Of a DNA stretch of 8,880 nucleotides, positions 738-1,487 are shown in pieces. Within the stretch, counting starts at the first letter, position 1. Each line of letters begins with the position of its first letter. Both the position numbers and the translations under genes were made by a program. Below the pieces are notes generated by a model that saw only the letters and a list, made by a program, of their open reading frames with translations, had not been told where the DNA came from and did no database searches. Source of the stretch: Alphaproteobacteria bacterium (GTDB lineage Bacteria > Pseudomonadota > Alphaproteobacteria > RF32 > CAG-239); contig JAFYWO010000049.1 of the NCBI GenBank assembly GCA_017557925.1, positions 1 to 8,880 of the forward strand. The letters run 5' to 3'.

Positions 738-1214
738 TTATTTTTTATCTTTTAAGATAGCATTACCTTGTTTTATTTGAAGAAACTCATAAGTACCAGC
801 CCATTGTGCCAATGGACCAAACAAGAAGAACACTAGAAATATTGTACCTGCACCAGCACAATTTTTGTATTTTTTTGTTTCTAGTTTTGAAGCAATTATA
901 GCGTAAATTACACCAAGGAATATATAAAAAAATCGCCAAAATGCTTTCCACTCATTTTCATCAGCTATAATAATACCTGTTTCTTCCAAGATAACACCAA
1001 CTATACCTAATATGACCAATGTAGCAACAGTTATTAAAAAAGATATTCCTACATTTTTCCAATTAACACCTTTCTTTTTATTGCTTTCTGCTTTTACAGG
1101 ATTGTTCACTGTATTATCAGATAAAAGTTGTTGTTTCATTTTATTAAACTCATCTTCGCTCAAAATTCCTTTTTCTTTTAATTCGTTAATTTTTTCAAGT
1201 TTTTCTAAATCCAT
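738..1214 (-). CDS. Membrane protein with N-terminal SHOCT module
   Basis: 158 aa. Residues 1-31 form a SHOCT module (leucine-rich helix, EKGILSEDEF turn, NKMKQQLL). A lysine-rich linker follows (33-53), then three predicted membrane segments at about 55-77, 91-109 and 121-138, and a basic tail. There is no signal peptide and no catalytic motif. Two adjacent ATGs are possible. The one at 1214 has GGGAG at 7-nt spacing and matches the start of the homologous small ORF at 666, so it is preferred over 1217. The gene lies directly below a structured RNA ending in an intrinsic terminator (1241-1267), with 26 nt between terminator and start, so expression probably depends on read-through of that element. 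Topology suggests an inner-membrane protein; function is unknown. Confidence 0.8.
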   Translation of the reverse strand: MDLEKLEKINELKEKGILSEDEFNKMKQQLLSDNTVNNPVKAESNKKKGVNWKNVGISFLITVATLVILGIVGVILEETGIIIADENEWKAFWRFFYIFLGVIYAIIASKLETKKYKNCAGAGTIFLVFFLFGPLAQWAGTYEFLQIKQGNAILKDKK

Positions 1215-1240
1215 CATAGTTCTCCCAAAATAGTCACAAT

Positions 1241-1267
1241 AAAAAAGCTCCCTTGATGAGAGGAAGC
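1241..1267 (-). terminator. Intrinsic terminator closing the leader RNA
   Basis: On the minus strand GCTTCC (1267-1262) pairs with GGGAGC (1252-1247), with a further T-A pair, giving a 7-bp stem that includes one G-U. The loop is 7 nt and six T residues follow (1246-1241). The outer pairs (1265-1267) overlap a strand that can instead pair upstream at 1336-1341, so an alternative anti-terminated fold is possible. Confidence 0.75.
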
Positions 1268-1428
1268 AGGAAGTTGAAACCTATTTTCTGGAATAGTGTA
1301 GTGTATTTAGTAACATATACTTTATTAACTACCTTCCTGCTGTATGCAAAAAGGTAGTTTTTACATCTGTATTTTTACAGATAACCAGAAAGAGGGTTTC
1401 AAACCTCACATCAGTAATCAGCTGATGC
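1241..1428 (-). ncRNA. Structured leader RNA or sRNA upstream of SHOCT gene (copy B, complete)
   Basis: About 188 nt from a predicted start near 1428. In order on the minus strand: a 5' hairpin CATCAG/CTGATG; strand 1 of a long-range stem (1402-1385, TTGAAACC and TTTCTGG); a hairpin ATCTGTA/TACAGAT; a hairpin AACTACCTT/AAGGTAGTT with AGCAGG in its loop; strand 2 of the long-range stem (1291-1274, CCAGAAA and GGTTTCAA). The closing stem has 15 pairs around a 3x3 internal loop. Right after it, CCTGCT (1270-1265) can pair with the loop AGCAGG as a pseudoknot, and the terminator follows. The architecture resembles a riboswitch or attenuator. I see no T-box, TPP, SAM or cobalamin consensus. An independent sRNA with leaky termination is the main alternative. 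Confidence 0.6.
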
Positions 1429-1464
1429 GATGTTAGGATATTCCTTTATTTTTTAGATGTCAAA
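1325..1464 (-). repeat. 140-bp direct repeat, copy B
   Basis: Second copy of the block at 1-140 (137/140 identical, no gaps). It contains the -35 and -10 elements and the first two thirds of the structured RNA. Similarity ends just outside the -35 box. How far the repeat extends toward 1241 cannot be judged, because copy A is cut by the window edge. Confidence 0.95.
1435..1463 (-). promoter_or_regulatory. Putative sigma70 promoter of leader RNA copy B
   Basis: The minus strand shows TTGACA (1463-1458), a 17-bp spacer and TATCCT (1440-1435). The -35 is perfect and the -10 matches 4 of 6. Transcription would start near 1428, at the foot of the first RNA hairpin. Confidence 0.55.
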
Positions 1465-1487
1465 AGATTTTTCTATAATACATTAAA

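Follow-up and report, generated by a model that had tools for sequence, protein, structure and literature searches.

The question raised by this locus is what lies between the promoter and the start codon of a SHOCT membrane protein gene in the window, the 8,880-nt stretch of DNA analyzed here, which is one contig (C30) in a draft genome of 1.3 Mb and 192 contigs. The initial annotation had proposed a novel riboswitch-like leader RNA on the minus strand, acting either as a cis-acting attenuator or as an independent sRNA. Comparison with homologues shows that the leader is a conserved structured RNA with a 3′ half homologous to the sRNA-Xcc1 family (RF02221), and makes it rather probable that it controls the SHOCT unit by attenuation.

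All features described here lie on the minus strand. The promoter boxes were found as proposed and are sigma-70-like, with the -35 box TTGACA at 1463-1458 and the -10 box TATCCT at 1440-1435 separated by a 17-nt spacer. The leader covers 1241-1429 (the covariance models R1 and R2 match 1243-1429), and its 3′ end is expected in the T-run at 1241. It is followed by a gene for a SHOCT membrane protein of 159 aa (738-1217) and, behind this, by a second SHOCT gene of 118 aa (246-602); both match PF09851. The terminator predicted ahead of the start codon was located at 1241-1267 (stem 1267-1261/1253-1247, loop CTCATCA, six Ts at 1246-1241), but the start codon at 1217 lies 23 nt past the T-run and not 26 nt as had been stated. 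The reported repeat is also real. Positions 1-148 repeat the promoter and the 5′ part of the element with 96% identity to 1325-1472; the contig start cuts this second copy, as it does its R2 match (1-105).

A blastn search placed the leader at five positions in its own genome, G000. In the copy on contig C148 (L005), two ORFs stand behind the leader in the same order as in the window. Near-identical copies of the promoter, leader, ribosome-binding site (RBS) and ATGATG precede unrelated genes (window 1201-1472 and 1-148; C31:2-257; C2:1-102); the similarity runs from the -35 box as far as the start codon, and the repeat is where contigs break. A diverged element also stands before a 254-aa ORF in this genome (C155:1104-1315, L230 405-616), scoring 58.8 bits with R2 and 29.6 bits with RF02221.

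The fold was derived from homologues. Twenty-seven leaders were aligned, and 24 of them were used to build R1. Alignment A2 (MAFFT, 24 leaders) was not fitted to a structure, yet the structure tested was derived from A2; in it, 95.0% of pair cells were paired, compared to 83.6% after shuffling and 35-46% after sliding by 1-3 columns. The initial annotation had named covariation among homologues as one of its checks, and changes on both sides were seen in 34 of 51 pairs, a number reached by none of 500 shuffles. RNAalifold on alignment A1 returned most of the same helices, with P3 missing and changes on both sides in 30 of 49 pairs.

From the 5′ end, the leader begins with hairpin P1 (1408-1428; stem 1428-1422/1414-1408, loop CTGATTA), which corresponds to the 5′ hairpin noted initially and has double-sided changes in six of seven pairs. 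P2 (1392-1407), read from the sequence, is a GAGG/CCTC hairpin with strand x as its loop; the variant GGGG/CCCC occurs in L014. Strand x (1395-1402) pairs with x′ (1274-1281) to form helix PK, with double-sided changes in four of eight pairs, and strand Y (1385-1391) pairs with Y′ (1291-1285) to form helix P3. These two helices, 1402-1395/1281-1274 plus 1391-1385/1291-1285, make up the 15-bp long-range helix that had been claimed. Y′ also lies in the loop of hairpin P8 (1281-1296, CTAT/ATAG), which is marked by covarying columns in 75 copies from genome G171 and is present in the RF02221 structure line. Two internal hairpins had been noted, but three were found: P4 (1364-1383; 1383-1376/1371-1364), with double-sided changes in five of six pairs, A:B (1358-1346/1340-1328), in five of 13, and P6 (1309-1321; 1321-1318/1312-1309), in four of four. 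Strand A covers 1346-1358 and strand B 1328-1341; the 3′ end of B (1332-1329) also has strand D (1298-1301) as a partner, with double-sided changes in three of four pairs on alignment A10.

The strands were further tested by swapping them between elements. The 299 rows of alignments A3-A6, many of them repeats, were reduced to 243 elements by dropping short, antisense and partial rows, and to 235 by dropping near-identical ones. Since A3-A6, like A10, were fitted to R1, own pairing is favored in this test for all helices other than B:C and B3′:D, which lie outside R1; own strands were paired at 98% compared to 48% for swapped strands in P3 (n=225), 95 to 67% in PK (n=231), 96 to 64% in P1 (n=227), 93 to 78% in A:B (n=106) and, in the set of 235, 89 to 68% in P4 and 98 to 85% in the terminator stem. 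Strand Y took 166 distinct forms among the 225 elements. When the 75 G171 paralogues were analyzed alone, the eleven top covarying column pairs were all in PK and P3 and were 93-100% paired. Across the aligned sequences, P1, PK, P3, P4, A:B, B3′:D, P6 and the terminator stem covary. The fold also contains invariant unpaired positions and a conserved AATA..AATA internal loop in the PK/P3 region. The lengths of the P3 and P4 region vary among the aligned leaders, which argues against a conserved leader-peptide frame.

Kissing between the P1 loop and the terminator loop is a candidate interaction, which was assessed in 160 of the 235 elements. A complementarity score of at least 4 was reached in 72 of 83 family elements (1208 of 1636 swapped) and 10 of 13 from distant Alphaproteobacteria (59 of 156 swapped), and in 18 of 35 from G171 (231 of 684 swapped) and 9 of 29 from G033 (201 of 556 swapped). 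The pairing appears supported in the family and distant elements, weak in G171 and absent in G033, and it was therefore kept out of the core claim. Matching loop variants among the family and distant elements include TGAT/ATCA, TGACTA/TAGTCA and TGGCGT/ACGCCA.

Strand B is complementary not only to A but also to strand C (1265-1273, partner 1341-1333), the 3′ end of which is common with the terminator stem. B:C was paired at all nine positions in all 24 A2 sequences, and the complete 9-nt complement was present in 217 of 235 elements compared to 906 of 2350 swapped combinations. On A10 (44 elements), B:C and B3′:D were together paired at 94.5%, compared to 82.9% after shuffling (0 of 500) and 38-47% after sliding. 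Double-change cells numbered 77 against 23.7 in shuffled alignments, the outermost B:C pair having letters in only 1 of 44 rows.

The switching that we infer from these helices would depend on strand A as an anti-antiterminator and strand C as an antiterminator. If A:B formed, C would be free and the terminator could form (off); if B:C formed, C would be taken from the terminator stem and the terminator would be weakened (on). The overlap of C with the stem is only 2-3 nt, and removal of the nucleotides used by C weakens the terminator hairpin of the window from -9.1 to -4.6 kcal/mol. The competing helices have energies of -17.6 (A:B) and -13.8 kcal/mol (B:C). Since the minimum-energy fold of the window leader contains A:B and the terminator (-66.6 kcal/mol, compared to -48.1 with B:C forced, both without pseudoknots), the leader is predicted to be off in its ground state. 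Because the off fold is so much more stable when pseudoknots are left out, a trigger or a kinetic effect must be assumed. The choice between A:B and B:C could be set by the folding of the long-range helices PK and P3, next to C, or by the binding of a trigger to them.

The leader thus combines a terminator hairpin with a conserved competing helix, the two structural features of an intrinsic-terminator attenuator, and the cis-placed layout suggested initially holds, with strong covariation and an end like that of an intrinsic terminator. It resembles transcription attenuators and riboswitch expression platforms in its mutually exclusive helices and in a terminator-like hairpin just before an ORF, but differs from them in having no known ligand or aptamer family. 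It is likely a switch for ending the message prematurely: transcription would end at the leader's own terminator unless the alternative helix formed, and the SHOCT unit behind it would be controlled in this way.

The flanks of the homologues follow the same plan. TTGAC preceded GAGG by exactly 56 nt at 26 of 31 loci and by 55-57 nt at 30 of 31, and a promoter with at most three mismatches in 12 positions preceded 131 of 231 elements compared to 24 of 233 shuffled ones. TTTT was present no more than 10 nt past the last stem in 208 of 233 elements, compared to 7 of 233 in a control stretch 18-28 nt on; it was missing in the other 25, and some of these may therefore act otherwise. An ATG with a 4-nt Shine-Dalgarno match opened an ORF within 75 nt of 198 of 232 elements; the opposite strand gave 1 of 227, and positions drawn at random 46 of 1160. 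A lax rule, which accepted any 40-aa ORF no more than 75 nt away, held for 224 of 232 elements, at a median distance of 33 nt, and also for 610 of 1160 random positions, so only the rule with ATG and Shine-Dalgarno match is informative. By these counts, the element stands between a promoter-like site and an ORF.

The element is not confined to this genome. With blastn (E≤0.01), the leader matched 39 of 129 genomes including its own, although several matches were weak. R1 was found in at least 115 of 152 genomes of its own family, its own genome included, representing 14 of 16 genera, and also in the single available genome of another family of the order (at least 116 of 153). In a class-wide draw, at least 20 of 385 genomes had R1 matches, four from the same family and 16 from ten other families. 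The broader model R2 matched at least 5 of 398 phylum genomes, including the window's own genome and G220; the one outside the class was G800. These counts are lower bounds, as 17 candidates per genome were scored in the family search and six in the class-wide and phylum searches. An exact 23-base match was present in five uncultured-proteobacteria records, three of them labeled Alphaproteobacteria or Rhodospirillales and one from roe deer colon; "RUG" in record names we take to mean rumen. On the sequence comparisons, the window leader is one of a large family of structured leader RNAs in many Alphaproteobacteria, the assignment of the relatives to this class resting on an alphaproteobacterial tmRNA on L007 and on record titles.

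Copy numbers vary widely. When as many as 150 candidates per genome were scored (E≤0.1), R1 had 147 matches in G171 and 95 in G033, both being 1.6-Mb genomes, while six other genomes had 6-12; related copies are not independent of one another. In a survey that took in 100 of 191 loci, genome G043 showed tandem elements (L065 1244-1425 and 1501-1680; L080 263-427 and 503-671), 257 and 240 nt apart from start to start, before a lipoprotein-like ORF.

The genes behind the leaders were compared next to that of the window. Placement upstream of a SHOCT gene is true of the window, but SHOCT is just one of many target types. Among 100 downstream proteins (the window's and 99 others) scanned with Pfam, OMP_b-brl was matched by 17, Opacity by 12 and Surface_Ag_2 by 10, barrel families that can match the same proteins, and RgpF by 4, SHOCT by 4, PilS by 3, EcoRI methylase by 3 and several glycosyltransferase families by others (among the 25 of 44 families listed). 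The targets are often outer-membrane, lipoprotein, pilin-like or glycosyltransferase genes. A hydrophobic N-terminus was found by a crude rule in 73 of 74 G171 targets, no Pfam family was present in more than one of the 30 scanned, and these proteins resemble paralogues of a single family with signal peptides. Of 25 G033 targets scanned, 23 matched Bundlin and 19 matched PilS. Of 55 pilin motifs in a 370-kb portion of G033, 40 had an R1 leader, and the six displayed of the other 15 resemble carriers of a more diverged leader with the same plan.

Next, relatives were sought in Rfam. At gathering thresholds, the window gave only a tRNA gene (RF00005, 2870-2940), which leaves no known riboswitch or other Rfam class for the leader. 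RF02221 had no match in the window at its gathering threshold (53 bits) and none at E≤1 for the window's locus, L001. The full-element homologue in G800, however, scored 76.6 bits with RF02221 over its 3′ half. At E≤1, RF02221 matched 12 of 13 element-bearing genomes, only G800 being above the cut-off, and also 2 of 14 control genomes, so a single weak match means little. In the stretches fetched from G171 and G033, all 24 weak RF02221 matches (of 64 listed for these genomes) fell on R1 elements, on the same strand and at relative starts of 0.44-0.48; elements make up 3.0% of the bases of these stretches, which were chosen because they hold elements. Scans at E≤1 of 8 family, 15 distant and 7 further loci placed RF02221 on the element in L226, L234 and L230. 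Overlaps of STnc430 with the L220 element on the other strand (E 0.41) and of mir-9413 with the L226 element (E 0.94) were taken as chance.

The RF02221 family, of 87 positions, spans strands B to C and the terminator foot, with B:C as closing helix, B3′:D, P6 and P8, and its structure line is the B:C fold; the leader's 5′ half (P1, P2/x, Y, P4 and A) is absent from it, as is the greater part of the terminator. The window leader belongs to an sRNA-Xcc1 superfamily, in which it is best read as a cis-acting attenuator. The initial annotation had called the leader novel and had named a match to an already described RNA as evidence to the contrary. The window itself has no Rfam match, but homologues tie its 3′ half to RF02221, so this contrary evidence exists for that half. 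The same kinship gives the independent-sRNA option a basis.

The title of Chen et al. 2011 calls sRNA-Xcc1 trans-acting and integron-encoded. In print it is accordingly described in these terms and not as a leader of surface genes, which speaks against the attenuator reading. Published reports state that mapping in Xanthomonas campestris gave an RNA of 88 nt, seen at ~100 nt on a Northern blot (PMC2996969), that it lies upstream of symE in the most widespread integron cassette of Xanthomonas (PMC12444791), that a Xylella genome has seven copies (PMC12189769) and that its structure is among 26 revised by Rfam 15 using R-scape (PMC11701678). Like the present leader, it is thus also found upstream of genes, symE in these cassettes and ant in phage Rac-SA53. 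A longer leader or an attenuator is not described in the excerpts covered of the literature on sRNA-Xcc1/RF02221, C4 and antirepressors, and SymE cassettes, a selection that is not exhaustive and that Chen et al. 2011 lies outside; what comes closest there is the placement upstream of symE (PMC12444791).

RF02221 also occurs in a second class, that of G800, which is presumably Gammaproteobacteria, judging only by near matches in Escherichia and Vibrio phages and Enterobacterales plasmids. In this class, 18 of 369 genomes had RF02221 at E≤1e-6, 12 of them above the cut-off. In annotated records with RF02221 above the cut-off, the element stands before ant, before a hypothetical gene beside an annotated sRNA-Xcc1 and before a Rha-family gene. 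Of 5426 E. coli genomes, 158 matched the Rac-SA53 leader, 31 of them over at least 80% of the query. The downstream ORFs of second-class loci presumably include SymE-like proteins and one Bro-N-like protein. R2 finds the full element in only 8 of 29 second-class loci. Upstream of RF02221, these loci have stretches complementary to its 3′ strand, often, as judged by eye, as a hairpin loop and a strand like x and Y. The tests covered 27 of the 29 loci, L266 and L270 being left out as near-copies of L256, and one analysis used 24 of the 27, three having no start codon by the rule applied. Own pairing within the leader averaged -32.9 kcal/mol compared to -26.1 for permuted partners (0 of 2000).

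The strongest alternative is that the leader is processed into an antisense RNA like C4. The 3′ half would be cut from the leader, Y′ and x′ would pair with the RBS of the next gene and perhaps of paralogues, the 5′ strands x and Y would serve as a decoy mimicking the RBS, and the terminator would only set the end of the small RNA. In C4 antisense RNA (RF01695) of phages P1 and P7, two short stretches of the processed leader are complementary to the RBS region of the target, as in the second-class loci; the b′ loop covers the RBS and the a′ loop pairs upstream (PMC5320573). The mapping of sRNA-Xcc1 as a short RNA of 88 nt speaks for such processing. In the 27 second-class loci, pairing of Y′-x′-C with the locus's own stretch 12-72 nt downstream was better than in all 2000 permutations, while 353 of 2000 were as good in a control stretch at 72-132 nt. 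The leader also resembled its own downstream site more than in any of 5000 permutations, compared to 429 of 5000 for the control stretch. In Alphaproteobacteria, none of 2000 permutations paired as well in type-I-like (n=38) or distant (n=16) elements; as low a value was reached by 27 of 2000 in the rest of the family and 9 of 2000 in G171.

Other data do not fit this alternative. G033 had no signal (260 of 2000), and the control stretch of the type-I-like elements gave 78 of 2000. The RBS region of the window (1221-1233) is partly complementary to 1293-1281, but the pair, at -10.0 kcal/mol by RNAduplex, is about at the permuted mean of its group (-10.2) and by itself is no evidence. The choice between A:B and B:C and the conserved T-run are not needed for an antisense RNA of this type. 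C4 also has a different fold, the terminator-like hairpin and the choice among strands A, B and C being particular to the present leader, and RF01695 had no match in the window scan or in the 8 family, 15 distant and 7 further loci (E≤1). On balance, we lean slightly against C4-like processing as the main function, and it is compatible with attenuation. Since Y′-x′-C is complementary to the RBS of the same gene in the second class and in some Alphaproteobacteria, a second, translational layer like that of C4 is likely there; for the window itself the case for such a layer is weak.

Attenuation by the same terminator could also be gated by a metabolite, with the PK/P3 region and its AATA..AATA loop as an aptamer for an envelope-related small molecule. 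The complex conserved fold with its invariant unpaired positions, the recurrence of outer-membrane and surface proteins among the targets and the tandem elements in G043 would suit a riboswitch. However, GGDEF proteins had no match in 5 of 13 element-bearing genomes (G017, G005, G509, G220 and G339) and RelA_SpoT none in 3 of the 13 (G509, G220 and G339), so c-di-GMP and ppGpp cannot be universal ligands. Homologues also front phage antirepressor and SymE-like genes, for which there is no obvious common metabolite, and 147 copies in one genome is unusual for a riboswitch. We consider a metabolite riboswitch unlikely.

A mobile or recombining promoter cassette, spreading as DNA with an incidental RNA fold, could account for the near-identical copies from -35 box to start codon before unrelated genes in the window's genome, the very large numbers of copies in G171 and G033, and RF02221 in integron cassettes, phages and plasmids, but is highly improbable because copies within one genome have diverged strongly and still keep their pairing, and DNA spread alone explains neither this nor the nearly constant sense position before ORFs. 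That the window copy came from a phage or plasmid was rejected, as its element had no blastn match in phage or plasmid collections; viral contigs scanned for an exact 26-base pattern also gave none.

The attenuator reading offers a mechanism that can be tested directly, with A:B set against B:C, the terminator and the RBS mimic. The 88-nt "trans-acting sRNA" family would become the 3′ half of a longer leader that occurs in phages, plasmids and two classes of Proteobacteria. Two 1.6-Mb genomes have 147 and 95 copies, many before members of one fimbrial-like and one pilin-like protein family; with such numbers the leader would, to our knowledge, be one of the cis-regulatory RNAs most often repeated within a genome. 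Its distribution would also point to a common regulon among the surface proteins of uncultured gut bacteria. More tentatively, gut Alphaproteobacteria may have turned a phage-type self-antisense leader into a genome-wide address system, in which up to 147 surface-protein genes would each have their own attenuator with private arms (the 166 distinct P3 strands in 225 copies), the members of a large adhesin repertoire would be switched singly and sRNA-Xcc1 would be only the 3′ piece of the switch; we regard this as doubtful.

The pilin-like repertoire of G033 is unusually large for 1.6 Mb, with 179 protein matches compared to 6-10 in three congeners. Five of its loci with pilin motifs and no R1 match (L112, L113, L117, L118 and L119) appear to have a second, strongly diverged leader type with a GAACTTCGGTTC 5′ hairpin, in which strands resembling A, B and C plus a terminator stand before pilin-like genes.
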